From an uncultured Opitutaceae bacterium (GTDB taxonomy: Bacteria; Verrucomicrobiota; Verrucomicrobiia; Opitutales; Opitutaceae): DNA of 44,052 bases. The position numbers and the translations under genes are program-made. The notes under the pieces are model-generated. The model was not told where the DNA came from, did no database searches, and saw nothing but the letters and a program-made list of their open reading frames with translations. Below are positions 3,850 through 21,393 of the stretch, piece by piece; within the stretch, counting starts at the first letter, position 1, and each line of letters starts with the position of its first letter. The stretch lies in contig CALFNN010000008.1 of the NCBI GenBank assembly GCA_937902925.1, positions 1 through 44,052 on the forward strand, in the 5' to 3' direction.

Positions 3850-3883
3850 TTTGAAACAAAAACATGCTCACTTTTGTTTCAAA
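3850..3883. promoter_or_regulatory. Perfect 12-bp inverted repeat at the AbiE antitoxin start (probable operator)
   Basis: TTTGAAACAAAA at 3850-3861 is mirrored exactly by TTTTGTTTCAAA at 3872-3883 with a 10-base centre. The palindrome is AT-rich in a GC-rich neighbourhood and covers the first possible start codon (3864) of the antitoxin gene. It ends one base before the second in-frame ATG (3885). AbiEi-type antitoxins are known to repress their own operon by binding inverted repeats in the promoter, so this is the obvious operator candidate. Its position suggests either a start inside the operator or a very short leader. Confidence 0.6.
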
Positions 3884-4508
3884 AATGGGCAGACACGCAC
3901 AGTCCACAGACTCCAAGGTGACGGACCGCATTAAACAGCAGTCTGCGGGCTGGGTTTTTTCCGCAGCCGATTTCCGTGACTTAGGCAGCCCTATGGCCGT
4001 TCGTCTCGCCCTTATGCGCCACGCTAAGAAAGGCGGCATCCGCAAAGTTGGTCGTGGGCTTTATGACCGGCCGCGCCAATTGGCCCGGCTGGGCCGCACG
4101 CTTCCCCCACTTTCGGAAAACGTCGTTCAGGCCATGCAGGCCCGCGATCATTCGAGAGTTCTTCCGTCCGGCGCTCACGCCGCCAATTTGTTGGGGCTTT
4201 CCACGCAAGTTCCGGTTCGCGCCGTCTATCTCACCGACGGTCGTGCGCGCAATGTGCCATTGGGACAGCAGCAGATTGTTTTTAAACACGCCGCGACCCG
4301 ACAGATGGCGACGGCGGGGCGCATCAGCGGCACCGTGATCCAAGCCCTGCGGTGGCTCGGTCGAGATCAGATTGATCCGGCGACAATTACCACGCTGCGT
4401 CACCGGTTGTCAGACCAAGACAAGAAGCAGCTTTTGCAGGATCTTCGTTACGCACCAGCATGGATCGCTGACATCATGCGGCAAGTCGCGGAGCCGGCAG
4501 CAACCTGA
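3864..4508 (+). CDS. AbiEi-like antitoxin (DUF6088 family), type IV toxin-antitoxin
   Basis: This is a 214-residue basic protein with an N-terminal winged-helix-like region (VTDRIKQQSAGWVFSAADF, LMRHAKKGGIRKVGRGLYDRP). A domain typical of DUF6088/AbiEi follows (VLPSGAHAANLLGLSTQVPVR, then YLTDGRARNVPLG). It ends 2 bp before a nucleotidyltransferase gene of the AbiEii family, the classic AbiEi-AbiEii order. In this family the antitoxin both counteracts the toxin and represses the operon. The 12-bp palindrome at 3850-3883 overlaps the first ATG. The ATG at 3885 (MGRHAQ) may be the real start; neither has an obvious ribosome binding site. Role inferred from family and gene pairing. Confidence 0.8.
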   Translation: MLTFVSKMGRHAQSTDSKVTDRIKQQSAGWVFSAADFRDLGSPMAVRLALMRHAKKGGIRKVGRGLYDRPRQLARLGRTLPPLSENVVQAMQARDHSRVLPSGAHAANLLGLSTQVPVRAVYLTDGRARNVPLGQQQIVFKHAATRQMATAGRISGTVIQALRWLGRDQIDPATITTLRHRLSDQDKKQLLQDLRYAPAWIADIMRQVAEPAAT

Positions 4509-4510
4509 CC

Positions 4511-5533
4511 ATGGACGATTACTTTGCATTGTCACCGGACGAGCAGCGCGGCTATTGCGAACTGGCGGCCGCCCAAATCAAACTCGACGCACCCAGCATC
4601 GAGAAGGATTTCTGGGTGTGCTGGATTCTACGGGAGACGTTTCTCCTGCCGAAGACCGGCTCACACCTGACCTTCAAGGGTGGCACTTCGCTCTCCAAGG
4701 GATGGAAATTGATCCAGCGCTTTTCGGAAGACATCGACGTGGTGATCGCCCGCGAATTTCTCGGATTCGGTGGGGACAAGGAGCCAGAAGCCGCGGACAG
4801 TAGAAAACAACGCGAAGTGAGACTGGAAGAGTTGCGCGACGCGTGCCGCGTTTACGTTCAGAACGTCCTTACTGGAGAATTACGGGAGCGACTCCAATCT
4901 CGGCTTCCCAAACACATCGAATGGCGGCTGGAGAACGACCCGAACGATCCTGACCAGCAAAGTTTGCTTTTCGTGTATCCCAGCGCCTTCTCGCGCGGGG
5001 CCTATCTTAATCCCCAAGTGAAATTGGAATTTGGTGCCCGCTCGGATACGGAACCCTCCGCGAGACCGATCATCCAGCCCTATCTTGCCGAGGCTCTGCC
5101 AGGCGAATTGAAGGACGCATCATTTCCGGTCCACACCGTCGCGCCGGAGCGAACGTTTTGGGAGAAAGCGATGCTGCTTCACGAAGAGAACTACAGCACC
5201 AAGCCGAAACCAAATCCCCGCATGGCCCGTCATTATTATGACCTGTGGTGCTTGCTCGGTGCAGGCGTGGGCGAGAAGGCGGTGTCCGCTCCGGGACTTT
5301 TCGAAACCGTCGCACACCATCGGGCGATTTTCTTCCGCAAGAAAAAGGAGGCACAGGATTCACTTCAGCCCGGCACGTTGGCGATTTTGCCGCGTGAAGA
5401 TCGGCGGACAGCGTGGGAACAGGATTACGAAGCGATGCAGGCCGCGATGTTTTTTGGGCCGGTGCCTTCGTTCGCGAAGATTTTGGGTGCGGTCGGCGAA
5501 TTCGAGAATCGTTTCAACAAAACGGCCCGGTGA
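4511..5533 (+). CDS. abiEii: AbiEii/AbiGii-family nucleotidyltransferase toxin
   Basis: The protein (340 aa) has the nucleotidyltransferase core of AbiEii toxins: IEKDFWVCWILRE near residue 33, FKGGTSLSKGWKLI (the GGTSLS glycine-serine motif) near residue 55, and RFSEDIDVVI with the metal-binding DxD-like acidic pair near residue 73. Later blocks such as TFWEKAMLLHEEN and RMARHYYDLWCL also match the family. Members transfer nucleotides to RNA and stop growth, giving abortive infection or plasmid stabilisation. The start lies 2 bp after the antitoxin stop, so the two are translationally coupled. All active-site motifs appear intact, so the pair may be functional. Confidence 0.85.
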   Translation: MDDYFALSPDEQRGYCELAAAQIKLDAPSIEKDFWVCWILRETFLLPKTGSHLTFKGGTSLSKGWKLIQRFSEDIDVVIAREFLGFGGDKEPEAADSRKQREVRLEELRDACRVYVQNVLTGELRERLQSRLPKHIEWRLENDPNDPDQQSLLFVYPSAFSRGAYLNPQVKLEFGARSDTEPSARPIIQPYLAEALPGELKDASFPVHTVAPERTFWEKAMLLHEENYSTKPKPNPRMARHYYDLWCLLGAGVGEKAVSAPGLFETVAHHRAIFFRKKKEAQDSLQPGTLAILPREDRRTAWEQDYEAMQAAMFFGPVPSFAKILGAVGEFENRFNKTAR

Positions 5534-6299: not shown

Positions 6300-6320
6300 G
6301 TAACTGAAGTTCTCAGTTAC
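6300..6320 (-). terminator. Hairpin at the end of the porin gene
   Basis: GTAACTGA (6300-6307) and TCAGTTAC (6313-6320) form a perfect 8-bp stem with a 5-base loop. It overlaps the TAA stop of the porin gene on the minus strand. It is followed on that strand by CCCC rather than a T-run, so intrinsic termination is only a moderate guess; an mRNA 3'-end stabiliser is equally possible. Confidence 0.4.
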
Positions 6321-8539
6321 AAAGCGTGGTCAAAAGAGAAGTAGGCGACCGGGCCGTGGTAGTTGGCGAAACCGCCGGATGTGTCGTTCTTGCTCTCGAA
6401 GTAGCCGGCCTTGGCGTTGCAGATCCAGGTGTCCGAGACCTTGAGCTTCACGCCGACGGTGAAGGAGGAGTCGCGCACCGCCACGCCGTAGGGCATCGTC
6501 TGCGCGGCGAGGACCGGGTTGCCGTTGGCCGCCCGATAGTAGTTACCCTGGACCTGGACATCCATGTCCTTGTTGACGACAAACCCGGCGAGCACGGAGC
6601 CCGTGACGTAGTTGTTATCGGAGTTCTGGACGTTTTTGTTCGTGTCGTAGGCGCTGACCGTCGACGTGGCGACGGTGATCCCGGCGCGCGGGTAGATCGT
6701 GTTGATCACATTGTAGATCACGTTGGCGTTGAGCTGCACGTAGCACGCGGCGTTCGGGTTGATGTCGACCGTCTCGCCGAGCATGTAGTTCTTGCCATCG
6801 AGCGAATCGAAGGCCGGATAAGTGGGCAGGAAGCCCGTGACCTGCATCGTGCTGCGCTGGGCGACAAACCGCGTGGTGCAGCTGACCATGGCGTCCGGCT
6901 TGGCGATGGCGGTGAGCTTGTAACCGGTGCTCTGTGAATCGAGCAGGTAGTAGTCGCCGACCTGGGTCTCGAAGCCGATGCTGTCGTCCTTGTGATCTTT
7001 CGTGAAAACTTCCCCGCGCACGGTCAGCAACGGTGACGCCTTCCAGTTGGCGCCGAGGGTGAAATCGCCGTGGCCTTCGGAGACATGGTTGGTGGCGAGC
7101 GTGCCGTTGGCGGCGGTGAGCGTGTTGTAGGCGGAGGTGTTGCGCTCGGTGCCGTCCAGGCCGCGCTTGCTGCCGACGAAGTAGAGCGAGAGATCCTTGA
7201 TGCCGGTGTAGCGCACTTCGAGCACCGGAGTCTGCGCCTTCTGGTGCTCCTTGGACCAGGCGAGGCGCGGGGTGGTGGTGAGGGTGACGGTCGGCGGCAC
7301 GGCGGTCGTGGCGACCGTGGAAGCGATGACGGAGTAGGTGCTGGAACCGCGGACGTATTCATCCTGGCCACGGAGGGCGACCTTCAAGAGCAGATCCGGC
7401 GTGGCCTTGTAGGTGAACCCGACGTTGCCCGTGTAGCTCTTGACGCGCGAACCGCCGGCCAGACCGGTATAGGTCGCGGTGGCGACGGCCAGCACGCCGG
7501 ACGAGGTGGGCGTAGCCGTGATCGTGGGGCGCGCACCGCTGATATCGCTGTGCAGCAGCTCGTAGTTGGCGCCAACATGGAAGCTCAGTTTATCGTTGAT
7601 CGCGGTGTCCGAATTGAAGGTGAGCCCGCTCGTCTTGGTCGCCAGACCGTCCGACTGGGCAAAGTAGGCCTGGTTGTTCCAGTTCGCGGGCGAGAGGGCG
7701 GCTTTCGCCGCGGGCTGCGCCGCCGACGACAGGCCGGCGACGGACCAGGGAATGACTTCGCCGGGGAAGTTGGTGAAGAAGCGCGAATCGAGGTTCTTGG
7801 TCCGATCGCCTTCCAGCGTGAGCTGCAGGTCCGTGTTCTTGACTTTCTGCTTCACGGTGAGCTCCAGATTCTCATGGCGTTCGCCGAGACGGATGAAGCT
7901 CGGGACGTCCTTGCGAACTTCGGTGATCGGGTTCGGTGCGACGGTGAAGGGCAGGCCGGTGAAGTCGGAGGAGCTCCAGATCGTGGAGTCCTTGCTGCCG
8001 GACCGCAGCTCGTTCGTGTAGCGCACCGTAACGACCGGCACATTCGGGAGCGTCAGCGTGGCTTCGGCCCAGAACTTGCCGCGGTCGGTGTGGCGTTCCT
8101 CCTTGTCGAGGACGTTCCATTGGTTGCTGGTCGGGAAGAACCCGCCGGCGCCATCGTAAAAGGTCCGGAAGCGCTTGAAGCCGACGTCGATGGTGCCGAC
8201 ATCGTTTTTGGCGACGTTGACCCGGCCGAGATAGTCCTCGGCGCCGCTGAGGGCGCGACCATCGATCACCACGGTGGTGGTCTTCGAGACATCCCGGGTG
8301 ATGTGCAGGTCCTCAATGCCGGCGCCGCCGTTGGCGGGCTGGGCGTTGCGGTTGGAAAAGGCGGCCTGGTCGCCCGAGACCATGGGGGCCTGTCCGCTGA
8401 CCTTGATGTAGCTTTCGAAGTTCGGGAAGGCGTCGGCGTTGGCGGCGTCGGCCGCGCGAGTTTGGACGCTCGCGAGGACGAACAGGGCGCCGGCGGCGGT
8501 GCCGGTGAGGCGGAGGAATTGGGAAAGGTTCGCGTTCAT
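6317..8539 (-). CDS. MtrB/PioB-like outer-membrane beta-barrel of a porin-cytochrome conduit
   Basis: The 740-residue protein has an N-terminal signal peptide (cleavage near ALFVLASVQTRA) followed by a long run of alternating polar and hydrophobic strands typical of a large barrel. Near residues 105-170 it has a pattern known from decaheme-associated porins: GVxxVGFKxFRTFYDGAGG, later KFWAEATLTLP and VTVRYTNELRSGSKDSTIW. Strands repeat to the C-terminal AYFSFDHAL. In porin-cytochrome complexes such a barrel sheathes a multiheme cytochrome and lets electrons cross the outer membrane. The gene directly upstream on the same strand (8560-9360, a 20-bp gap) encodes a multiheme lipoprotein, which supports that role. 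The N-terminal CXXC of proteobacterial MtrB is not present. A second, truncated homologue lies at 9849-10750. Assignment to this family is by pattern, not alignment. Confidence 0.7.
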   Translation of the reverse strand: MNANLSQFLRLTGTAAGALFVLASVQTRAADAANADAFPNFESYIKVSGQAPMVSGDQAAFSNRNAQPANGGAGIEDLHITRDVSKTTTVVIDGRALSGAEDYLGRVNVAKNDVGTIDVGFKRFRTFYDGAGGFFPTSNQWNVLDKEERHTDRGKFWAEATLTLPNVPVVTVRYTNELRSGSKDSTIWSSSDFTGLPFTVAPNPITEVRKDVPSFIRLGERHENLELTVKQKVKNTDLQLTLEGDRTKNLDSRFFTNFPGEVIPWSVAGLSSAAQPAAKAALSPANWNNQAYFAQSDGLATKTSGLTFNSDTAINDKLSFHVGANYELLHSDISGARPTITATPTSSGVLAVATATYTGLAGGSRVKSYTGNVGFTYKATPDLLLKVALRGQDEYVRGSSTYSVIASTVATTAVPPTVTLTTTPRLAWSKEHQKAQTPVLEVRYTGIKDLSLYFVGSKRGLDGTERNTSAYNTLTAANGTLATNHVSEGHGDFTLGANWKASPLLTVRGEVFTKDHKDDSIGFETQVGDYYLLDSQSTGYKLTAIAKPDAMVSCTTRFVAQRSTMQVTGFLPTYPAFDSLDGKNYMLGETVDINPNAACYVQLNANVIYNVINTIYPRAGITVATSTVSAYDTNKNVQNSDNNYVTGSVLAGFVVNKDMDVQVQGNYYRAANGNPVLAAQTMPYGVAVRDSSFTVGVKLKVSDTWICNAKAGYFESKNDTSGGFANYHGPVAYFSFDHAL

Positions 8540-8559: not shown

Positions 8560-9360
8560 TTAGTAGCGGAAGTGGTTGTTGGCGTTGGAACCGTGCGGCG
8601 CCTCGTGGCAGCTCGCGCTCCAGCAGGTGCCCTGCATCAGGCGGGAGTTGTGATTCTCCGACGTGTGACGGATGGCGTTGGCGTTGATCTGGCCGGTGAC
8701 TCCCGGATCGGGCGCCTCGAGATGGCAGCGGAGGCAGAGATTCGCGTCGCGGGCGACGAGCATCTTCTGGTTGATCGTGCCGTGCGGATTGTGGCAGGCG
8801 ACGCAACCCTCGCGCATGGCGCCGTGCTCGTAGACGAACGGGCCCTTTTGCTCGGTGTGGCACTTGGTGCAGACGGCGTTTTGGGCCTCGAGATTGGCGC
8901 CGGTGCCGGCGATCGCGTTGCCCTTGTGCACCTCATGGCAGTCGGCGCAGCTCATCTTGCCGTTCAACACCTGGTGGCTGTTGGGCAGACTGAACTGGGC
9001 GCGCTTGTCGAGGTGGCACTGGAAGCAGGTCTCGGGGGACTTGCGGGGATTCACGATCGTGCCCTTGCCGCCGCCAGCGGCGACATGGAGGCTGCCGGGG
9101 CCATGGCACGCTTCGCAACCGGTGTCACCGACCTTGGCGTCGGTGAGGTGGAGGCGGGCGTGCGAGGCCGTGGCGAAGTGGTCGGTCTGGTCGGAGTGGC
9201 ATTGCGCGCACTCCTTGCTGCCGACGTATTTCGCGCCGGCGATTTGGGGCGCCGCCACGATCGTGCGGTTCGCCGTCACGCATCCGATCAGCACCACACC
9301 CCAAAGGGCCGTGCCTCCGAAGATGAGGGTAGTTTTCGTCCAGCGAGGGCGGAAGTTCAT
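8560..9360 (-). CDS. Octaheme c-type cytochrome lipoprotein (MtrA/DmsE-like)
   Basis: From the ATG at 9360 the protein is 266 aa. It has an N-terminal hydrophobic stretch ending in the lipobox-like LIGC, so it is probably a lipoprotein. Seven CXXCH motifs follow in order (CAQCH, CEACH, CFQCH, CADCH, CTKCH, CVACH, CLRCH), plus an eighth with four spacer residues, CWSASCH, close to the C-terminus. The layout resembles the DmsE/MtrA periplasmic electron carriers, which usually have ten hemes; here there are eight. It is transcribed just upstream of the MtrB-like barrel, forming a probable porin-cytochrome conduit. The open frame extends upstream to 9693 without family resemblance, so the internal ATG with signal sequence is preferred. 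Which electron acceptor it serves is unknown. Confidence 0.85.
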   Translation of the reverse strand: MNFRPRWTKTTLIFGGTALWGVVLIGCVTANRTIVAAPQIAGAKYVGSKECAQCHSDQTDHFATASHARLHLTDAKVGDTGCEACHGPGSLHVAAGGGKGTIVNPRKSPETCFQCHLDKRAQFSLPNSHQVLNGKMSCADCHEVHKGNAIAGTGANLEAQNAVCTKCHTEQKGPFVYEHGAMREGCVACHNPHGTINQKMLVARDANLCLRCHLEAPDPGVTGQINANAIRHTSENHNSRLMQGTCWSASCHEAPHGSNANNHFRY

Positions 9361-9848
9361 GGTGTAGAGTTTTAGGTTCGTTGGCCAGCGGAGGAACCAG
9401 CAGGGCTGGTTCAGCGCTCGCACTTTGCCTGAATATCGGCGCGACGGCTGCGCATGCCTTGCCTTGTTCGGCGCGCGTTTTGCCGTAATTTGCGGTCGTT
9501 TTTCTCGCCGCCGGGCGTCGCCTTGGGGCGCAACCGTCCGCCGACGAGCGGTTGCACCGGGCTGATTCGCGAGGGACCGGCTGGCGCGACGGCCTCGTCC
9601 GCCCGGCGCCAGCCATGCGGCTTTACATTGATCGCCAGCGGTTAGCTTCGCACGGCGCGAGGGCCGATCGAAAATTGGGAGACGGAAATCCACGCGCCCG
9701 CTGGACGCCGGTCTCGCGTCTCAATGGCGGGCGGGTGTGCAACGATTGCGCGGGAGTGCGCGCATCTTGCCCGCGATCGCAAAAAACGCCGGCCGCGAGC
9801 GGGGCTGCGCGACCGGTGGGCGGAAGCTGGAATCGAACGTCGGCGGAC
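9361..9848. other. Non-coding gap upstream of the octaheme cytochrome gene
   Basis: Nearly 500 bases with no convincing gene. It should hold the promoter for the cytochrome-porin pair. GCGCGCATCTTGC at 9758-9770 recurs almost exactly at 10768-10779 beside the truncated porin copy, and inverted near 10920. This may mark duplicated flanking DNA or a shared regulatory site. I could not recognise a promoter. Confidence 0.4.
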
Positions 9849-11027: not shown

Positions 11028-11363
11028 ATGAAGACCTCCCACCGAATTGTCGGGCTTGTCATCGCGTCCGCCGCGCTTGCGACGGGTGCCTATTGCGCCG
11101 ATGGCTCGACCAACTGGACCGACCAATGCGCCAAGTGCCACGGCGCCGACGGCAAGGGTGAAACCAAGATGGGCCGCAAGCTCGGCATCCTCGATCTCAC
11201 CGACGCGAAGGTGCAGGCCAGCTTCACCGACGAGGACATCGTCAAGGCCATCAAGGAGGGCAAGAAGGACAAGGAGGGCAAACTCGCGATGAAAGCCATC
11301 GAGGGTCTCTCCGATGACGACATGAAGGCCCTGGTGCCGGTCGTCCGCGCGCTCAAGAAATAA
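11028..11363 (+). CDS. Small monoheme cytochrome c (c553-like), periplasmic
   Basis: A 111-residue protein with a clear signal peptide (cleavage after AYCA) and one heme site, CAKCHGADGKG, near residue 34. The usual class I cytochrome c helices follow (FTDEDIVKAIKEGKKD, LSDDDMKALVPVVRAL), and a Met in KLAMKAIEGL is suited as axial ligand. It is a soluble electron shuttle. It stands at the head of the tetraheme/ferredoxin/NrfD gene string and is divergent from the truncated porin. The gap between (10751-11027) should contain its promoter but shows no clear boxes. The cytochrome at 37410-37742 is a paralogue with the same CHGADGKG heme site. Confidence 0.9.
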   Translation: MKTSHRIVGLVIASAALATGAYCADGSTNWTDQCAKCHGADGKGETKMGRKLGILDLTDAKVQASFTDEDIVKAIKEGKKDKEGKLAMKAIEGLSDDDMKALVPVVRALKK

Positions 11364-11396: not shown

Positions 11397-12068
11397 ATGG
11401 CAACTTCACCTCAACCCGGCCCGGGAGACGGAGTGGCGCGCACCAATCTCCTGCTCGGGGGATTGACCCTCGTGTTCTTCGCGCTCGCCGGCCTGCTCAC
11501 GAAGAATCTCTGGGGCCACCTGGCGCCGAAGCAGAATATTCCGCTCGTCGACAGGAAATTCCTCGAGACGACGCCCTGGCGCCAGACCTACGCCGATCTG
11601 GTGAAGGCCAAGGAGGATCTCTCGGACTACGATTGCTACGGCTGCCACGAAAAGAACAAGCCGCCGCCGATCCGCTACGACGCGAATCAGAAAATCGTCA
11701 TCCCGAAGGAGCATTCCGACATCGTGATGGGCCATGGCTCGCACGACCGGAACAACAACTGTTTCAACTGCCACAACGAGGCGAATCTCCTCACGCTTCA
11801 GGTGCGCGACGGCCGCCAGGTCGGTTTCGACAACATCCCGCAGCTCTGCGGCAGTTGCCACGGCCCGACCTACCGCGACTGGGAGGCCGGCGCGCACGGC
11901 CGCATCAGCGGCAGTTGGGATCACACCAAGGAGGGCCAGTTCACGCGGCTGAGCTGCGCGAATTGCCACAACCCGCACGCGCCGCGGATTCCCACCCGCG
12001 AGCCGGCGCCGCCGCCGCATCCGCTCCGCGTGCCCACCCCGGCGGCCGAGTCCGCCGCCACCCCCTGA
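11397..12068 (+). CDS. Membrane-anchored tetraheme cytochrome c
   Basis: The 223-residue protein has an uncleaved N-terminal membrane helix (LLLGGLTLVFFALAGLL, about residues 18-35). A periplasmic part follows with four CXXCH motifs: CYGCH near 80, CFNCH, CGSCH, and CANCHNPHAPR near 187. A proline-rich C-terminal tail ends the protein. It lies 33 bp after the small cytochrome c gene and 1 bp before the ferredoxin gene. Together with the NrfD subunit this gives the set cytochrome c / FeS protein / NrfD, as in NrfBCD, Qrc or Hmc-type complexes that exchange electrons between the quinone pool and periplasmic cytochromes. No molybdoenzyme (QrcB-like) subunit is present here. Confidence 0.85.
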   Translation: MATSPQPGPGDGVARTNLLLGGLTLVFFALAGLLTKNLWGHLAPKQNIPLVDRKFLETTPWRQTYADLVKAKEDLSDYDCYGCHEKNKPPPIRYDANQKIVIPKEHSDIVMGHGSHDRNNNCFNCHNEANLLTLQVRDGRQVGFDNIPQLCGSCHGPTYRDWEAGAHGRISGSWDHTKEGQFTRLSCANCHNPHAPRIPTREPAPPPHPLRVPTPAAESAATP

Positions 12069-12069
12069 C

Positions 12070-13014
12070 ATGTCCCTCCCGCCGCCCGCTCCCGACAAGA
12101 CTTCCGACGCCGCGATGTCGCGCCGCAGCTTTTTGCGCGGCTCGGCCATGTTCGGCGGCCTCACCGCCCTCGCCGCGAGCCTCTCGCCGCTGCGCGAGTT
12201 GAGCGACTTCACCAACACCGAGCAGTTCCTTCAGAAATACTACAAGGAACTCACGCCGGACGACATGAAGCAGGTCCTCGCCCGCATCGAGGGCGAGGTC
12301 GAGAAGCAATACGGCGTGCGACCGCACGTGCGCGACCTCAAGCCGATGGACGGCGTCGAGTTCGTCTACTGCCTCAATCTCACGCGCTGCATCGGCTGCC
12401 GCAAATGTGTCCACGCCTGCGTCAACGAGAACAACCAGTCGCGCAACCCGGAGATCCAATACATCCGCGTCCTGCGGATGCCCCACGGCTCGCTCGACAT
12501 CGACAAGGCCGAGCAGAACTACCACCCGAAGCAGGTGCCCGAGCCGGGATTTTTCTACATGCCGGTGCAATGCCAGCAGTGCCACACCCCGCCCTGCGTG
12601 AAGGTCTGCCCGGTGCACGCCACGTGGCAGGAGAAGGACGGCATCACCGTGATCGACTACGACTGGTGCATCGGCTGCCGCTACTGCGAGGCCGCGTGCC
12701 CCTACTGGGCGCGGCGGTTCAATTTCACCAAACCCGAGATCCCGAAGGAGCGCCTGAACCCCAACATGGCCTACCTCGGCAACCGGCCGCGCAAGCAGGG
12801 CGTGATGGAGAAATGCCACTTCTGCATCCAGCGCACCCGCGCGGGCCGCTACCCGGCGTGCCTCGAGGTCTGCCCGGTGGGCGCGCGCAAATTTGGCAAC
12901 ATCCTCGATCCGGACAGCGAGGTTTCCTACATCCTCCGCGAGAAGCGCGTGTTCATCCAGTTGAAGGAGGAGATGGGGACGTCGCCGCGGTTCTTCTACT
13001 ATTTCGACAAATGA
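12070..13014 (+). CDS. Tat-exported 4x[4Fe-4S] ferredoxin subunit (NrfC/HybA-like)
   Basis: The protein (314 aa) begins with a twin-arginine signal (SRRSFLRGSAMFGG, about residues 17-30). Four cysteine clusters follow: CIGCRKCVHAC, CQQCHTPPCVKVCP, CIGCRYCEAACP, and CHFCIQRTRAGRYPACLEVCP. This is the standard NrfC/HybA/DmsB arrangement for four [4Fe-4S] clusters, placed on the periplasmic side by Tat export. It would wire the NrfD quinone site to the tetraheme cytochrome. Gaps to its neighbours are 1 bp upstream and 67 bp downstream, so a single operon is likely. All cluster cysteines appear present. Confidence 0.9.
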   Translation: MSLPPPAPDKTSDAAMSRRSFLRGSAMFGGLTALAASLSPLRELSDFTNTEQFLQKYYKELTPDDMKQVLARIEGEVEKQYGVRPHVRDLKPMDGVEFVYCLNLTRCIGCRKCVHACVNENNQSRNPEIQYIRVLRMPHGSLDIDKAEQNYHPKQVPEPGFFYMPVQCQQCHTPPCVKVCPVHATWQEKDGITVIDYDWCIGCRYCEAACPYWARRFNFTKPEIPKERLNPNMAYLGNRPRKQGVMEKCHFCIQRTRAGRYPACLEVCPVGARKFGNILDPDSEVSYILREKRVFIQLKEEMGTSPRFFYYFDK

Positions 13015-13081: not shown

Positions 13082-14842
13082 ATGATCTCCGCCGCGCGCA
13101 ACTATTTCCGGTTTCTCTGGCGCTGCGCCCGGGTCGCGTTCGTCGGCGACTGGCGCTACTACGCCTGGATGGGCGCGCTCACGATCTTCGTGCTGCTCGG
13201 GCTCAATGCCTACTGCAAGCAGTTCGTCAACGGACTCATCACGACCGGCATGAGCGACGAGGTTTCCTGGGGCGTCTACATCGCCAATTTCACCTTCCTC
13301 GTCGGCGTCGCCGCCGCCGCCGTGATGATGGTGATTCCCGTCTACATCTACGACAACGAGGAGCTGCACGACCTCGTGATCTTCGGCGAACTGCTCGCGG
13401 TCGCCGCGATCATCATGTGCCTGCTCTTTGTCACGGTCGATCTCGGCCGGCCGGATCGCTTCTGGCATCTCATCCCCGGGCTCGGTCAGCTCAATTTTCC
13501 CGCCTCGATGCTGAGCTGGGACGTGATCGTGCTCAACGGCTACCTGCTGCTCAACGTCTGGATTTGCGGCTACCTGATCTACATGCGCTACCAGGGGAAA
13601 AAGCCGTCGAAGTGGTTCTACATTCCCTTCGTCTTCATCGCCATCGTCTGGGCCGTCTCGATTCACACCGTCACCGCGTTTCTCTACGTCGGCCTCGGTG
13701 GCCGGCCGTTCTGGAATTCCGCGATCGTCGGCCCGCGCTTTCTCGCCTCCGCCTTCGCCGCCGGCCCCGCGCTGATCATCCTCGCGCTTCAGGTCATCCG
13801 CCGCGTCACGGCCTCGACGTCCACGCAGGAGGCGGCGGTCTTGCGGGCGGCAACCACCGTTCATCCGGCGAGCCGCGCGGCGACGTTCGACGATCTCGAT
13901 CTGCTCTCCTGCCACCTGCCCGAGCTCGCGGCGCTGACCCCCGACGAGCGCACGAAATGCCTGGAAGGCGCGACGGTTTTCGACGTCGCGGGTGGCGAGG
14001 TGCTGCTCAAGCAGGGTGAGACCGACGCGCATGCGTTCTTCGTGCTCAACGGCCGGGTGGTCGTGAAACGCGAGGAAAGCGGGCGCTTCCGCATCACGCG
14101 GAGCGTCGTCCCCGGCGGCCAGTTCGGCGAGGTCTCGGCGCTCAACGCCACGCCGCGCATGGCCACCGCCATTGCGGAGGAGCCGACCCGCGTGCTCCAG
14201 TTGCCGGCCGCGGCGCTGCGCGCGATGATGCAGAATCGCAAGGTCGAGCCGGTCATCCGCTCGCACATGTCCGAGCGGCTCATGATCACCGACCACGCGC
14301 TGCTCACGCTGCGCGCCATCGTGCAGGTTTCGATGATCATCAATGTATTCCTCCTCGCGTGCGAGGTGTTCAAGGAATTCTACTCCGGCACGGCGCACGG
14401 CATCTCCGCGAAATACCTCTTCGTCGGCCTCGACGGTCATCACGCGCTCGTGCCGTGGATCTGGACCGCGATCGGCTTCAACCTGATCGCGATGGTCATC
14501 CTCGCACTGCCGGTCAGCCGCAGCCTGCGCTACCTCAATATCGCCTGCGTCCTCGCCATCGTGGGCATCTGGATCGAGAAGGGCATGGGTCTGGTCATCC
14601 CCGGGTTCATCCCGACGCCGCTCGGCGCCGTCGTCGACTATCTGCCATCGCTCAACGAGACGCTCGTTTGTCTCGGCATCTGGGCGTTCGGCCTGCAGCT
14701 CTACACTATCTTCCTCCGCATGTCCGTGCCGATCCTCCAGGGCCGGATGACGAAGGCGAATGAAGCGCAGGCGGCGGAATCCAGAATTCAGAATCCTGGA
14801 TGGAAGAATCTCCAACCCGCCGCCAACCGCCAGCCCTCCTGA
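13082..14842 (+). CDS. NrfD/PsrC-type membrane subunit with an embedded cyclic-nucleotide-binding domain
   Basis: The 586-residue protein is split. The N-terminal half (about residues 25-240) has six membrane helices of NrfD type, including SWGVYIANFTFLVG and DLGRPDRFWHLIPG, the region that forms the quinone site. Residues about 245-395 form a soluble domain of the CAP_ED/cNMP-binding fold (GGEVLLKQGETDAHAFFVLNG). Its phosphate-binding cassette, FGEVSALNATPRMAT, keeps the conserved Glu and Arg. From about residue 400 the NrfD helices resume (four more, including IWIEKGMGLVIPGF and ETLVCLGIWAFG). The domain would sit between helices 6 and 7. It follows the ferredoxin gene and is presumably the quinol-oxidising anchor of that complex, controlled by cAMP or cGMP. 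The last about 20 codons lie in a palindromic element (14776-14854) and look like an acquired tail. Confidence 0.85.
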   Translation: MISAARNYFRFLWRCARVAFVGDWRYYAWMGALTIFVLLGLNAYCKQFVNGLITTGMSDEVSWGVYIANFTFLVGVAAAAVMMVIPVYIYDNEELHDLVIFGELLAVAAIIMCLLFVTVDLGRPDRFWHLIPGLGQLNFPASMLSWDVIVLNGYLLLNVWICGYLIYMRYQGKKPSKWFYIPFVFIAIVWAVSIHTVTAFLYVGLGGRPFWNSAIVGPRFLASAFAAGPALIILALQVIRRVTASTSTQEAAVLRAATTVHPASRAATFDDLDLLSCHLPELAALTPDERTKCLEGATVFDVAGGEVLLKQGETDAHAFFVLNGRVVVKREESGRFRITRSVVPGGQFGEVSALNATPRMATAIAEEPTRVLQLPAAALRAMMQNRKVEPVIRSHMSERLMITDHALLTLRAIVQVSMIINVFLLACEVFKEFYSGTAHGISAKYLFVGLDGHHALVPWIWTAIGFNLIAMVILALPVSRSLRYLNIACVLAIVGIWIEKGMGLVIPGFIPTPLGAVVDYLPSLNETLVCLGIWAFGLQLYTIFLRMSVPILQGRMTKANEAQAAESRIQNPGWKNLQPAANRQPS

Positions 14843-14854
14843 ATTCTGGATTCC
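14776..14854. repeat. Inverted-repeat element forming the 3' end of the NrfD gene
   Basis: GGAATCCAGAATTCAG at 14776-14791 is the exact reverse complement of 14839-14854, with 47 bases between. A second nearby pair (GGAAGAAT at 14802-14809 and ATTCTTCC at 14857-14864) extends the symmetry. The left arm starts inside the NrfD frame and the right arm contains its TGA stop, so the element supplies the last codons. It then ends 14 bases before the next gene. It may be a miniature palindromic insertion or a strong mRNA hairpin between two cistrons. Confidence 0.65.
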
Positions 14855-14868
14855 AAATTCTTCCGCCC

Positions 14869-15420
14869 ATGGCCAAGCAACTCACTGCGGACGACGCGAA
14901 ACAATCCCTCACCGCCCACGTCGAGGCGAAGGGCGTCGAGATTTATCTGAAATACGGCCCGCAGCTCGACTGGGGTGCGCTGCAGCGCCTGCTGGAGGAT
15001 CGCGTCTACGTGCGCTACCCCGTCGAGATCGCCTTTGCCGCGGAGCCGTTGCTCCCCGGCGAATTCGCGCAGCCCGTGGCGAAAGGCGAGAGTCCCGAGG
15101 ACGGTTTCACGATGTTCGTGCACCCGCTGTTCCAGGCGCAGCTCGACCTCTTGCCCGCCCTCGTCCTCTACCAGTTGGTCGCCGTGAATTACGGTGTGTT
15201 TGCCTCGTCCGACGACGCCGAGACCTTCGGCGCGGCTGCGCTCGGCCTCACGCGCGACGAATACTACGCGACGATCTGCGCCGCCGCCGACCAACTCGGC
15301 GCCGACGCCCCGACCGACATTACTGGCGCTCCGATGGAATACGAGCAAGTCGGCAACGGGTGCGGCAGCGGTGCCAATGGCGACGGATGTGGCGGCGGCT
15401 GCAGTTGCGGCGGGCACTGA
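14869..15420 (+). CDS. Uncharacterised protein with Gly/Cys-rich C-terminal tail
   Basis: I do not recognise this 183-residue protein. It has no signal peptide or membrane helix. The body is mixed alpha/beta (GVEIYLKYGPQLDWGALQRLL, then VYVRYPVEIAF and LTRDEYYATICAAAD). The C-terminus is a striking GCGSGANGDGCGGGCSCGGH tail with four Cys and a final His that could bind a metal or cluster. It begins 26 bp after the NrfD stop, just past the palindromic element, and is probably co-transcribed with the redox module. A role in maturation or metal handling for that complex is only a guess. Confidence 0.7.
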   Translation: MAKQLTADDAKQSLTAHVEAKGVEIYLKYGPQLDWGALQRLLEDRVYVRYPVEIAFAAEPLLPGEFAQPVAKGESPEDGFTMFVHPLFQAQLDLLPALVLYQLVAVNYGVFASSDDAETFGAAALGLTRDEYYATICAAADQLGADAPTDITGAPMEYEQVGNGCGSGANGDGCGGGCSCGGH

Positions 15421-15505
15421 TCGGCCCCTTTGCGCGCCTGCCACGCGTTTCACGCCTGCATGGACGGCGCAGCCATGACGCGGATGTGACGCGGGCGTCG
15501 CATCC

Positions 15506-15534
15506 GAGGTTGTCAACTATTGGTTGACAACCTC
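15506..15534. promoter_or_regulatory. Perfect 12-bp palindrome between convergent genes
   Basis: GAGGTTGTCAAC at 15506-15517 pairs exactly with GTTGACAACCTC at 15523-15534 around a 5-base centre. It is relatively AT-rich and sits in the gap between the Cys-tail gene and the DUF2339 gene, which face each other. It could be a bidirectional terminator, although no T-run follows on either strand, or a repressor operator. The TTGACA inside it also looks like a -35 box, but no gene starts near it. Confidence 0.45.
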
Positions 15535-15674
15535 CGCTCGACGGCGGTTGCCGGGATTTTCCGCGTGGAAACGCGCTCGATGCCGGCGAGGGCTCGCGCG
15601 GCTGGCGTTCACGATGGAGGCGGATCACGCCGGCGACGCGAGGCCGGCGCGCACGCTTTGACCCGGCCGCCCCG

Positions 15675-17339
15675 CTAAGCGGGTGGCGATGGAGCAACAA
15701 CGGTCGCGCGCTGCCGTTTCCGCAGCCGCGTGAACACGAGCGACACGATCAGGAGCACCGTGCCCAGCACGAGAAACGACAGCACGCGGAACACCGGCTC
15801 GAATTGCCGCGTGCCGAGCGTCACGAGGTAGAAAGTCGTCAGCAGCAGCGTGGCGTGGCCCATCCAGCGGTATTTCTGGTTCCGCACGATGAAGTTCATC
15901 ACGTAGTAGCCGACCGCCAGCCCGACCCAGGCCAGCGCGACGTGCCGCGACGGCACGAGGTGATAGAGCGCATACGGAAACACGACAAACGCGCTCAAGA
16001 GATAGGCGTTGCGCATCAGCCCCGTCTTCAGCTCCAGCCGTTCCTTTTGCCAGTTGAGGATCCGCGCGCTGACCAGCGCCACGATCCCGAAGCCGACACT
16101 GATGCCCGATTCCTTCTCCGCGACCACGATGTAGCCGAGCACGATGCCGAGGTAGATCAGGAAATTGGCGACCACGATGAAGCGGGACCGGAACCAGATC
16201 GCCGTCGTCACCACGATCACGCTCTGCAGCGAGAGCCAGACAAACACGTCGGGTGCGGCGGTCGCCTTGATGATCGCCATGCTCAGCGCCATGTAGCCGG
16301 TCATCGCGTAGAGAAACGTGGAAACATGGCTGCGCTCGCGGACCCAAAAGGCCACCGCCAGCCCGAGAAACACCAGCGACGCCGCCAGATGCGCCGGCGC
16401 GAAGATCGTTCCGTGGCGCGCCAGCGTGTGCAGAAAGAAGACGCCATAACCGAGGGCGCAGTTGAGCAGCGCGCTCGTGTTCGTGAGTCCGTCCTCGACG
16501 CGGTGGTCCCGTCGCAGCAACGGACCCGCCGCCAGGATCACCGCGACCACGAGGACGAACCCGGGTGCGACCGACGGCCCGGCGACAAACTGGAACGGCC
16601 GGCCGAGGAAAGGATCGTTACCGGCCCAGGCGAAATAAGTCGCGTAGCCGAGCGGGATGCCCGCGAGCGCGAGACCCGGCCAGTTGTTCTTGAGCGCGCC
16701 GGCGACGGCGAGCGCGGCCAGCACCACGACCGCCGGCAGCAGGAAACTCCCGGCGCCCACCGCCACCGCGGTCACATGGCCGAGGACGAGCGCGAGCCCG
16801 ACCAGCCACGGAGATTTGCGCCGGTAGGCGAGGACCAGGTTCAGTGCCACGACCGCCACGAGCGCGGCGCGGCCGATGAAAGTGTCCGTGGCCAGCACGT
16901 GCCGCGTGCCGAAGAAATACAGTCGCAGCGTCGCGAAATAGAAAAGCGCCATCGCGACGCCGCGCAGATGGCCGGACACGAGTTCGAAGGATTGCCGCCA
17001 CATCCGGGCCAGTGCGAAGAGCCCGATGGCCAGTGCGCCGCCGATCAACGAGGGCACGGCCGCCGGCAGGCTCGCATACGGCAGCGACATCATGAAGATG
17101 GCGCCGAGCGTGAGAACGGCGATGCCGACCTTCGCGAACCAGTTCTGGCCGACCTCGAATTCGAGTTCGTCCTCCGTGCGGCCCGCGACCGCCGTTAACT
17201 CGATTGGCGAGGCTGGGGCGGCATCGGGTTCCGTGGCGGCAAGGTTGACGCGGGCCTCGAGCCGGGCGACGCGCGCCTCGAGTTCCGCGATGTGGCGCAT
17301 CGCGGCATCCTCCCGGGGAGACTCGTTGGGCTCGTTCAT
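15675..17339 (-). CDS. DUF2339 family multi-spanning membrane protein
   Basis: A 554-residue protein. The N-terminal about 35 residues form a short coiled coil (MRHIAELEARVARLEARVN), followed by a linker and the motif ENWFAKVG-like GQNWFAKVGIAVLTLGAI near residue 70. More than a dozen hydrophobic helices then run to the C-terminus (LVLGTVLLIVSLVFTRLRKR). This coiled-coil plus W-F-A-K-V-G plus many-helix layout is typical of DUF2339, whose function is unknown. It is transcribed towards the redox module's last gene, from which it is separated by the palindrome at 15506-15534. No sign of truncation. Confidence 0.75.
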   Translation of the reverse strand: MNEPNESPREDAAMRHIAELEARVARLEARVNLAATEPDAAPASPIELTAVAGRTEDELEFEVGQNWFAKVGIAVLTLGAIFMMSLPYASLPAAVPSLIGGALAIGLFALARMWRQSFELVSGHLRGVAMALFYFATLRLYFFGTRHVLATDTFIGRAALVAVVALNLVLAYRRKSPWLVGLALVLGHVTAVAVGAGSFLLPAVVVLAALAVAGALKNNWPGLALAGIPLGYATYFAWAGNDPFLGRPFQFVAGPSVAPGFVLVVAVILAAGPLLRRDHRVEDGLTNTSALLNCALGYGVFFLHTLARHGTIFAPAHLAASLVFLGLAVAFWVRERSHVSTFLYAMTGYMALSMAIIKATAAPDVFVWLSLQSVIVVTTAIWFRSRFIVVANFLIYLGIVLGYIVVAEKESGISVGFGIVALVSARILNWQKERLELKTGLMRNAYLLSAFVVFPYALYHLVPSRHVALAWVGLAVGYYVMNFIVRNQKYRWMGHATLLLTTFYLVTLGTRQFEPVFRVLSFLVLGTVLLIVSLVFTRLRKRQRATVVAPSPPA

Positions 17340-18971: not shown

Positions 18972-19146
18972 TGTCGGCCAAAGCCGGCCGGACCACTACC
19001 GGCTCATTGCCCGATGCTCCGCATTTGTTGTCCACTCGTCAGATTTTGCATCGCCCCGGGCAAGAAGTGCCGCGGATTCGTCAACGGATGCGAAGACGCC
19101 CCCTCGGGTGGGGCTATGATGGCACTTGGCGAAACCGCCACTTCCG

Positions 19147-21393
19147 ATGCCAGCTCCCGAAATCAGTCCCGCCGATCCGCGTTCGGTCCTCCCGGTCCGG
19201 CGCGTCTGCCGGATGGTTGCGCTGTGGTGCGCCGTATCGCTGGGGCTCGCCGCCCGGGCCGCCGAACCGGCCAAGCCCGCCGCGCCCGCGCCAAATTCCA
19301 GCGCGAGCTGTCTCGAGTGCCACAGCGACCACGACCTCTCGATGCGCAAGGGCGGCCAGAAGGTCGCACTCTTCGTCGACGCCGCCGTCGGGGCGAAATC
19401 CGTCCACGCCTCGCTCGAATGCACCGACTGCCACGAGAAATTCGACGGCGACAGCGTGCCGCACCGGTCGCCAATGGTCGCAGTGGATTGCGTCACCTGC
19501 CACGAGGACACGGCGAAGAAGCACGCCTTTCACCCGCGGATCGCGCAGAGCCCGATGCCGGCGGGTCCCGATACCTCCTGCGTGACGTGCCACGGGAAAC
19601 ACGACATCGCCCGCGTGAAGAGCGCGGCCTTCGCCTTCAACGACGGCCCGCAGGCCGACTCGTGCGGCCAGTGTCATCAGGCGGCGCGCGATCATTTCAA
19701 GGCCTCGGCTCACGGGCGCGCGTTCGCGGCGAAGGAGGCCAACGCTCCCGACTGTCTCACGTGTCACCGTCAGCCGATCGTGGCAACGGCGCCTGCGACG
19801 CTCACGCTCGACCAGAAGATGGCGCAGACGAAGCAGTGTGAATCCTGCCACGTCGGGAAGGAAAACGTCGCGGGCCAGGCGCTGCGCGGCGTGAAATTCG
19901 TCGCGGCATTCGACCAGAGCGTGCACGGCGCGGCCTTGCACGCCGGCAAGGTCGCCGCCGCGAATTGTGTCGACTGCCATGGCGCGCACGAGATGAACCG
20001 CGCGATGGCTGCCAGCGCGAAGATGAACAAGCTCCACGTCGCCGAGACTTGTGCGAAGTGCCACGAGAAGCAGGCCGCGGAGTTCGGCGGGAGCGTGCAT
20101 GCGGCCGCGTTGCGCAGGGGCAACGTCGATTCGGCCGCCTGCACCGATTGCCACGGCGAGCACGACATTCTCAAGCACACCGACCCGGCGTCGCCCGTGA
20201 GCGCAAAGAACGTCGCCCAGCAGGTCTGCGCCAACTGCCACGCCTCGCTCCGGCTGACGCAGAAATACGGGCTGCCCTCGCAGTCGTTCCAGACTTTTTC
20301 CGATAGTTACCACGGACTCGCGGTGCGCGGCGGCGCGGTGGAGGTGGTCAACTGCGCGAGCTGCCACAGCTCGCACGCCATCAAGTCGCAGACCGACCCG
20401 ACCTCCACGATCAACCCGGCGCACCTCGCGCAGACGTGCGGCCAGTGCCACCCGGGCGCCAACACCCGCTTCGCCGTCGGCAAGGTTCACGTCAGCCCCG
20501 AGGCGGCGCACGGTGCTGCCAGCAGCCCGGTCCTCTATCTCATCTCGAGCCTCTACGTCATCCTCATCGTCCTCGTGGTGGGCGGGATGATGGCGCACAA
20601 CGCACTCGATCTCCTGAAGAAAATCCGCCGCAAGCTCGCGATCCAGCAAGGCCTGATCGAACCCGAGCACGTCGCGCATCGCCTCTACCTGCGAATGACG
20701 GTGCACGAGCGCTGGCAGCACGCGGTGCTCGTGGTCAGCTTCACGCTGCTCGTCGTCACGGGCTTCATGCTGCGTTATCCCGAGGCGTGGTGGGTCGTGG
20801 GCATCCGCAACCTGAGCTCGCGCGCCTTCGAGTGGCGGAGCTGGATTCACCGCGGCGCCGGCGTGGTGATGCTCGCCTCCGGCCTCTGGCATTTCTGCTA
20901 TCTCGCCTTCACGGCGGCGGGCCGCTCGCTGTTCCGCGACATCCTGCCGCGGTGGCGCGATGCCACCGACCCGCTCGCCGTGATGAAATACAACCTTGGG
21001 CTCGCGCCCACGAAGCCGCGCTTTGGCCGCTTCTGCTACATCGAGAAGGCGGAATACTGGGCGATGATGTGGGGCACGTTCCTGATGGGGCTCACCGGCT
21101 TCATGCTCTGGTTCGACAACACCTCGATCGGCCTCTTCACCAAGCTGGGCTTCGACATCGCGCGCACGGTGCACTTCTACGAGGCGATTCTCGCGACGCT
21201 CGCGATCGTTGTCTGGCATTTCTATTTCGTCATCTTCAACCCCGACATCTATCCGATGAACCTCGCCTGGCTGACCGGCCGGATGTCGGAGGAGGAACTG
21301 CTGGAAGAACACCCGCTCCAACTCGAGCAACTCAAGGCCGGGGAGAAGGCGGCGAAACCCCGCCCCCCGCCGGAGCCGCCACCGCCGGCTTGA
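19147..21393 (+). CDS. CbcL-like fusion: 13-heme cytochrome c plus b-type membrane cytochrome
   Basis: From the ATG at 19147 the protein is 748 aa (a TTG at 19126 is also possible). A signal peptide (MVALWCAVSLGLAARAAE) precedes thirteen CXXCH motifs: CLECH, CTDCH, CVTCH twice, CGQCH, CLTCH, CESCH, CVDCH, CAKCH, CTDCH, CANCH, CASCH, CGQCH. After about residue 465 there is a membrane helix (PVLYLISSLYVILIVLVVGG) and then a four-helix b-type cytochrome domain of the HydC/FdnI kind with His ligands (VHERWQHAVLVVSF, IHRGAGVVMLASGLWHF, VHFYEAILATLAIVVWHFYF). Fusions of this type, such as Geobacter CbcL, oxidise menaquinol and pass electrons to periplasmic cytochromes. A paralogue with eleven hemes is at 29575-31779. 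The C-terminal tail is proline-rich. Confidence 0.9.
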   Translation: MPAPEISPADPRSVLPVRRVCRMVALWCAVSLGLAARAAEPAKPAAPAPNSSASCLECHSDHDLSMRKGGQKVALFVDAAVGAKSVHASLECTDCHEKFDGDSVPHRSPMVAVDCVTCHEDTAKKHAFHPRIAQSPMPAGPDTSCVTCHGKHDIARVKSAAFAFNDGPQADSCGQCHQAARDHFKASAHGRAFAAKEANAPDCLTCHRQPIVATAPATLTLDQKMAQTKQCESCHVGKENVAGQALRGVKFVAAFDQSVHGAALHAGKVAAANCVDCHGAHEMNRAMAASAKMNKLHVAETCAKCHEKQAAEFGGSVHAAALRRGNVDSAACTDCHGEHDILKHTDPASPVSAKNVAQQVCANCHASLRLTQKYGLPSQSFQTFSDSYHGLAVRGGAVEVVNCASCHSSHAIKSQTDPTSTINPAHLAQTCGQCHPGANTRFAVGKVHVSPEAAHGAASSPVLYLISSLYVILIVLVVGGMMAHNALDLLKKIRRKLAIQQGLIEPEHVAHRLYLRMTVHERWQHAVLVVSFTLLVVTGFMLRYPEAWWVVGIRNLSSRAFEWRSWIHRGAGVVMLASGLWHFCYLAFTAAGRSLFRDILPRWRDATDPLAVMKYNLGLAPTKPRFGRFCYIEKAEYWAMMWGTFLMGLTGFMLWFDNTSIGLFTKLGFDIARTVHFYEAILATLAIVVWHFYFVIFNPDIYPMNLAWLTGRMSEEELLEEHPLQLEQLKAGEKAAKPRPPPEPPPPA

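Follow-up and report, generated by a model that had tools for sequence, protein, structure and literature searches.

We analyzed a stretch of 44,052 nucleotides from an uncultured Opitutaceae bacterium (GenBank assembly GCA_937902925.1, contig CALFNN010000008.1, positions 1 to 44,052, forward strand; referred to here as the window), in which the gene for a dsrP/nrfD-type quinol subunit carries a cyclic nucleotide-binding (CNB) domain embedded between its sixth and seventh transmembrane helices (TM). Together with the redox genes next to it, this gene may encode a menaquinol:cytochrome c oxidoreductase gated by a cyclic nucleoside monophosphate (cNMP). The fused gene and its parts are located as follows:

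13082..14842, plus strand: dsrP/nrfD-type quinol subunit with embedded CNB domain (open reading frame [ORF] with an ATG start, 586 amino acids)
13082..13810, plus strand: membrane domain part one, TM1-TM6, carrying Y66, D120, S142 and D147 (presumed quinol site)
13811..14284, plus strand: inserted segment, residues ~244-401, not present in unfused homologues, whose junction corresponds to 243/402
13874..14290, plus strand: CNB domain proper, residues 265-403, placed with Pfam and solved CNB structures
14123..14170, plus strand: phosphate-binding cassette, residues 348-363, with Glu350 and Arg359 kept in 53/53 fused proteins
14267..14290, plus strand: hinge that joins the C-helix of the CNB domain to TM7, residues 396-403, with Met396, Arg399 and Leu400 invariant among fused proteins
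14291..14737, plus strand: membrane domain part two, TM7-TM10, residues 404-552, delimited by the helices of the model

Pfam NrfD covers residues 55-246 of the 586-aa protein (3.2e-37; 129.3 bits, cutoff 25.8) and Pfam cNMP_binding covers residues 303-385 (1.3e-18; 67.2 bits, cutoff 27.5). The NCBIfam model DsrP (NF045798) scores 411.9 bits against a cutoff of 350, its match being split into two stretches, and the alignment to insert-free homologues stops at about residue 243 and picks up again at 402. The predicted structure, a single-chain model with a predicted local distance difference test (pLDDT) score of 81.8 and a predicted template modeling (pTM) score of 0.83, runs from TM1-TM6 through the CNB domain to TM7-TM10, with long helices that we read as TM1-TM6 at residues 24-53, 61-82, 93-121, 143-170, 177-205 and 216-243 and as TM7-TM10 at residues 404-434, 457-475, 482-501 and 524-552. 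The membrane part is modeled as two four-helix bundles with two extra helices, that is, the 10-TM fold of ActC, and its best match in the fold comparison was indeed ActC of alternative complex III (6btm_C, Z of 30.6 over 362 residues). The insert matched best the cGMP-bound 3cl1_A (Z of 16.3, root mean square deviation of 2.3, 126 aligned residues) and the cAMP-bound 4avb_A (Z of 16.2). Structures of DNR (2z69_C) and FNR are also among the fold matches to the protein, and the top-scoring solved sequences for the CNB domain are those of cGMP- and cAMP-dependent kinase CNB domains. Block means of the model confidence are 92 to 97 over residues 251-390, with one block at 86. The stretches that fall below 50 (52-61, 124-141, 203-207, 503-505, 511-515 and 582-584) are either part of the tail or loops presumed to be periplasmic, the side on which partner subunits are expected. 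The original prediction, which put a cNMP-binding domain at about residues 245-395, is exact by the model in that the NrfD helices are interrupted after the sixth and then resume, and the phosphate-binding motif that it quoted, FGEVSALNATPRMAT, corresponds to residues 348-362 and keeps its Glu and Arg.

The fusion is not peculiar to this contig. A genome scan gave 562 confirmed stretches, the best 80 of which are the loci analyzed here (L032-L111); other NrfD proteins with the domain inside the fold do exist, since 53 of these best 80 (L032-L084) are fused and 27 (L085-L111) are close homologues without the insert, but as taking the best 80 of 562 favors fused copies, 53/80 is no estimate of frequency. 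The insertion is found at the same place in all fused loci aligned; two of the 53 lack the N-terminal part, and in two others the contig breaks off within the insert. Among 189 genomes around that of the window (itself included), 41 match, 14 of them fused, all within the family of the window, and 27 with the unfused form only; one of the 14 (G042) holds an unfused copy as well. In an even sample of the phylum (387 genomes), 17 match and five are fused, again all in the same family. Three further genomes (G528, G538 and G547, behind L052, L066 and L077) have, besides a fused dsrP, an unfused copy that is more distant (66 to 68% identity), so that sensor-bearing and sensor-free paralogues can coexist. 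The fusion operon also occurs in two records that bear the titles “Klebsiella pneumoniae” (L071) and “Proteobacteria” (L070). The phylum sample around the genome of L071 (G543) holds six other genomes whose matches agree in contig, position and E value with the phylum sample of the window, and the Klebsiella title is therefore wrong, while L070 falls with Verrucomicrobia in the core tree described below.

A sequencing, assembly or binning artifact might be suspected because the assembly behind the window is a draft in 105 contigs and because the overall GC content of the insert is above that of the core (0.70 versus 0.62 and 0.62), but the latter is expected of a change from membrane to soluble protein. 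The fusion recurs in 53/80 loci and in 14/41 matching genomes, the reading frame is unbroken, and GC at third codon positions is even (0.91 in the insert and 0.90 and 0.86 in the core), all of which excludes an assembly join and leaves an artifact of any kind with a negligible probability. The two doubts raised in the original prediction, that two genes might have been joined within 13,800-14,300 or that the fusion might be absent in all relatives, can be dismissed on these same grounds.

The domain has the look of an intact cNMP sensor, and ligand binding is predicted from its sequence. In known CNB domains, the Glu of the cassette holds the ribose and the Arg holds the cyclic phosphate. Both Glu350 and Arg359 are kept in each of the 53 distinct fused proteins whose sequence covers this site, and Phe348, Gly349 and Ser352 are likewise invariant. 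By conservation, the cassette ranks second among the 111 sixteen-residue segments of the domain, with a mean majority-residue fraction of 0.85, as compared with 0.68 for the rest of the CNB domain, 0.34 for linker 1, which follows TM6, and 0.86 for the hinge, the last being on a par with the membrane core (0.88 and 0.87). The insert is under purifying selection: in 10/10 pairs, the dN/dS ratio was 0.09 to 0.28 for the CNB domain, 0.02 to 0.09 for the N-terminal core and 0.01 to 0.29 for the C-terminal core, as obtained by simple counting on 10 close pairs picked by hand, some of which share rows. The C-helix is the moving part of CNB domains, and a variable linker after TM6 together with a conserved hinge between C-helix and TM7 is what would be expected if the C-helix pulls on TM7, which suggests that the two are mechanically coupled. 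The residue after Arg359 is variable (n = 53; M 18, T 13, V 10, A 5, L 3, E 2, Q 2), and does not discriminate between cAMP and cGMP as the ligand.

The location of the domain relative to the membrane can be predicted with some consistency. According to the topology passages of PMC5928083, both termini of ActC from Rhodothermus marinus are cytoplasmic, and because the insert follows TM6, it would be cytoplasmic too if the N terminus is. In the window protein, Lys and Arg residues number 12 in the presumed inner loops versus 4 in the outer ones (leaving out the flanks of the insert itself), and the inner excess is found in 53/53 fused rows and in 41/41 rows classed as unfused, although the latter include the truncated fused L081 and L083 and the incomplete L028, L106, L102 and L097. 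Helix count in the model, charge and ActC topology hence all point to a cytoplasmic CNB domain and disfavor a periplasmic one. On the other hand, the quinol site of the NrfD-type family is placed at the periplasmic face, near the iron-sulfur (Fe-S) subunit, in the passages on this site in PMC5928083 and PMC8076601; the latter lists Tyr52, Asp106, Ser124 and Asp129 as the quinone-site residues of Desulfovibrio vulgaris DsrP. Compared with these by spacing alone, Y66, D120, S142 and D147 of the window protein agree in two intervals (54 and 5) and differ in the middle one (22 versus 18). All four are invariant in the 66 rows of alignment A1, which remained after 13 of 79 candidate rows had been dropped; minus-strand and open-ended rows had been removed at an earlier stage. 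The domain had been expected on the cytoplasmic side and beside the quinone site; model and charge favor the first part, but the second does not hold, and with a cytoplasmic domain and a periplasmic site, any control must go through the helices. The original description of NrfD subunits as plain membrane anchors also needs correction, as PMC8076601 presents NrfD-like subunits as quinone binding and possibly ion translocating, and the direct control of electron flow that it envisaged should be put more cautiously, as a hypothesis.

To follow the history of the fusion, a core tree was built from 86 proteins with the insert left out. Four loci at contig ends (L080-L083) were omitted from it, as were, from all trees and comparisons, L028 (which has internal stop codons), L106, L102 and L097; L026, L030 and L031 were additionally left out of the separating-position and segment-tree analyses. 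The tree mixes fused and unfused proteins, with 13 label changes of which at least six are forced by well-supported branches, and a single fused clade was rejected by the approximately unbiased test (P = 0.0029). All aligned fused proteins share one insertion point and one hinge. It is unlikely that the segment was inserted independently several times at the same residue; a single gain, with later losses and a trading of the cassette between orthologues, may be the better account. Trees of separate segments gave 16 label changes for residues 1-130, 8 for 131-243 and 13 for 404-563, suggestive of an exchange of the cassette together with its upstream flank, although this is no proof because the segments differ in information. 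Core positions were also ranked by how well they separate fused from unfused proteins. Of the top 10, seven (239, 405, 557, 172, 563, 241 and 548) are near the junction or on the cytoplasmic side, the other three (189, 231 and 465) are mid-membrane, and none is periplasmic, as judged by their place in the model, without a formal test. This pattern accords with exchange of the cassette, but a cytoplasmic face that adapted to the presence of the domain could have produced it too.

The fused gene is part of an operon and is accompanied by the following genes, all on the plus strand:

11028..11363, plus strand: small monoheme cytochrome c, upstream (start picked by eye; a similar upstream gene is found in many relatives)
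11397..12068, plus strand: tetraheme cytochrome c in the CbcS/DsrJ position (CxxCH at residues 80, 122, 151 and 187)
12070..13014, plus strand: DsrO/CbcT-like four-cluster ferredoxin (twin-arginine signal RRSFLRG; DsrO 168.4 bits, below the cutoff of 200)
14869..15420, plus strand: fourth gene, without a family and with a Cys/Gly-rich tail (start set at Met24 of a 206-aa ORF)

The genes for the tetraheme cytochrome and the DsrO-like protein are directly upstream of dsrP in 78/80 loci (51/53 fused and 27/27 unfused), the two loci without them being those that begin inside dsrP. CbcS is also tetraheme. The DsrO-like protein has four cysteine clusters, and the cytochrome has an N-terminal hydrophobic segment that was read by eye as a membrane anchor; this segment and the twin-arginine signal place the electron-carrying subunits outside. 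The claim that a complete redox complex lies beside the quinol subunit is borne out by gene content. No match to dsrA (TIGR02064) was found in the genome of the window, which is 95.07% complete, so this is not a Dsr sulfite-reduction complex. The fourth gene is present in 68/80 loci (47/53 fused and 21/27 unfused) and starts near the end of dsrP in 65; it gave no Pfam family and no fold match in the PDB at an E value of 0.001 or better. Many of its copies end in a Cys/Gly/His-rich tail, metal binding in look.

Other genes for electron transfer are found in the same region. A multiheme cytochrome with seven CxxCH motifs (8560-9693, minus strand), matched below cutoff by the GSU2203 and DmsE decaheme models, stands next to the gene for a large 740-aa protein without a Pfam match (6317-8539, minus strand), which we took for an outer membrane porin by its position and length. 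The pair may form a porin-cytochrome conduit like the one that has been suggested for Verrucomicrobia. At 19126-21393 there is a 13-heme (CxxCH) protein fused to a b561-type membrane domain, which we take to resemble the CbcL-type quinol oxidoreductases and which is a possible second exit from the quinone pool. For freshwater Verrucomicrobia, extracellular electron transfer by a porin-multiheme system has been proposed, with homologues in Opitutus, and the part of PMC5615132 that deals with it draws the inner membrane step only as “ET in IM”. Judged by proximity alone, the present operon is a candidate for this step. Farther away, adjacent DUF6088/AbiEi-like and AbiEii genes (3864-5533), apparently a type IV toxin-antitoxin pair, adjoin an AAA_13 ATPase gene (4-2259, minus strand) and a DUF2971 gene and may mark the edge of a defense island.

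The genome of the window (6.0 Mb) has nine class III cyclase matches above the family cutoff and eight CNB matches above cutoff, the fused DsrP included, and is thus endowed with a rich cNMP signaling network. Two of its cyclases (L112 and L113) show Lys and Asp at the positions where adenylate cyclases have them, for which reason we prefer cAMP as the ligand. A cyclase is present in 14/14 fused genomes (median of 5) versus 17/21 unfused genomes of the same family (median of 1), an excess with uncorrected P values of 0.0007 (14 versus 21) and 0.007 (against 13 closer genomes). In L070, a receiver domain fused to a class III nucleotide cyclase is encoded at 14754-15965, about 5 kb downstream of the fused dsrP, as read from its ORF, and L069 has a similar match by profile alone. 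The rest of the 80 loci had no match beside the locus to this profile, which is a poor one, because half of the eight stretches that it was built from (L115, L117, L118 and L119) had been read on the wrong strand. Cyclases near the locus in L070 and L069 are only a hint.

Taken as a whole, the gene content and the features of the domain make it reasonably likely that this is a menaquinol:cytochrome c oxidoreductase of the Cbc4/DsrJOP-like kind, gated by cAMP or another cNMP through its cytoplasmic CNB domain and perhaps feeding extracellular electron transfer. Electrons from the quinol would travel along the four Fe-S clusters, reach the tetraheme cytochrome and be handed to further cytochromes, which may be those of an outer membrane conduit. 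A cNMP made by the class III cyclases of the cell would bind at Glu350 and Arg359 and move the CNB C-helix, with a slight lean on our part toward activation by the ligand. The fuller proposal, that in Verrucomicrobiota a cNMP directly gates the outflow of the menaquinone pool, probably toward extracellular acceptors, by means of a cassette gained, lost or swapped many times over at a single site of subunits that are orthologous in other respects, has in our estimate about an even chance of being right. That seven of the 10 best separating core positions are on the cytoplasmic side of the model counts in favor of gating. Several observations weigh against it. The CNB domain evolves faster than the core (mean identity of 0.58 versus 0.84 and 0.80), and its dN/dS is above that of the N-terminal core in 10/10 pairs. 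The quinol site is at the membrane face opposite to the domain, so that transmission would have to be long range, and the hinge that should mediate it is modeled at lower confidence (75 for block 391-400, where it starts). Separating positions ranked 11 to 25 include four that are periplasmic (521, 437, 141 and 214). In 27/80 loci, the same operon holds close homologues without the domain, and the complex therefore does not need it. Finally, the cyclase excess is not demonstrable on independent tree pairs, of which there are three, too few for significance, and the link to cyclases is not relied on here.

The main rival to gating is recruitment or assembly, in which cNMP binding would serve assembly, dimerization or localization, for example by recruiting a partner or stabilizing the complex at high cAMP. 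TM6 and TM7 belong to the ActC-ActF dimer interface of alternative complex III, as stated in the interface passages of PMC5928083, and a cytoplasmic domain between them would be well placed to affect pairing; a loose and variable linker 1 is also in keeping with this. Yet the hinge between the CNB domain and TM7 is conserved like the core (0.86 versus 0.88 and 0.87), suggesting mechanical coupling, and we regard this explanation as unlikely, if worth keeping in mind. Alternatively, the domain could detect heme, NO, a redox state or some small ligand that is not a cNMP, in the manner of CooA, DNR or the FNR-type members of the CRP superfamily. This would suit a redox complex and would agree with the presence of DNR and FNR structures among the fold matches. 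To our knowledge, however, those members of the superfamily that respond to heme or NO or carry an Fe-S cluster have lost the ribose/phosphate cassette, whereas Glu350 and Arg359 are found here in 53/53 proteins and the best-scoring solved sequences are CNB domains of cGMP- and cAMP-dependent kinases, all of which makes such a sensor improbable. That so many close homologues live without the domain in the same operon context might also indicate a structural relic, tolerated and without a present role. This we hold to be very improbable, given dN/dS values of 0.09 to 0.28 in 10/10 pairs, no loss of Glu350 or Arg359 in 53 proteins, and no partly deleted insert except at contig ends.

As far as is known, control of bacterial respiratory complexes is exerted mainly through transcription, the supply of substrate and the membrane potential. 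Gating by a cNMP, if true, would let a second messenger act directly, quickly and allosterically on one respiratory branch, an idea that can be tested directly on natural pairs of closely similar subunits, one with the sensor and one lacking it. Such gating could also provide a possible handle on the electron output of engineered electroactive bacteria, and the operon would offer a candidate inner membrane step for the porin-multiheme system outlined in PMC5615132.

One of the closest known systems, by reported gene content, is Cbc4 (CbcSTU) of Geobacter sulfurreducens, described as a menaquinol:ferricytochrome c oxidoreductase, which also combines a c-type cytochrome, a DsrO-homologous iron-sulfur protein and an integral membrane subunit; the latter, CbcU, is termed a b-type cytochrome yet likened to NrfD (PMC11434368). 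That paper mentions no CNB domain such as the window protein has, and the word “cyclic” does not occur in it. As in DsrMKJOP, the membrane subunit scores above the DsrP equivalog cutoff and the partner is DsrO-like, but here there is a CNB insertion, the cytochrome has four hemes rather than the three of DsrJ, and the DsrO-like subunit remains below the DsrO cutoff (168.4 versus 200). The ten-helix fold is shared with ActC of alternative complex III (6btm, 6f0k, 8k9e and 6lod; Z of 28.6 to 30.6), although the structural passages of PMC5928083 mention nothing inserted between TM6 and TM7 of ActC. A second NrfD-type subunit (ActF) was not found on the contig of the window. A CNB domain coupled to a transmembrane part is also known from the MlotiK1 and SthK channels and the SLC9C1 exchanger, which, or the CNB domains of which, appear among the structural matches. 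In these ion carriers, the CNB domain lies C-terminal to the membrane part, whereas here it sits between two helices of an electron transfer subunit. The cAMP-regulated Pat/Rv0998 (domain match with a Z of 16.2) is likewise a CNB domain fused to a bacterial enzyme, but that enzyme is an acetyltransferase, soluble and without a membrane or redox part. Among the open-license papers listed by our searches, we found no NrfD-CNB fusion in print, in line with the original statement that no system of this kind had been described; in the text of the only paper where “NrfD” and “cyclic nucleotide-binding domain” appeared together, they referred to separate genes (PMC13332983). Both component families are known, and what is new is a sensor in this position.

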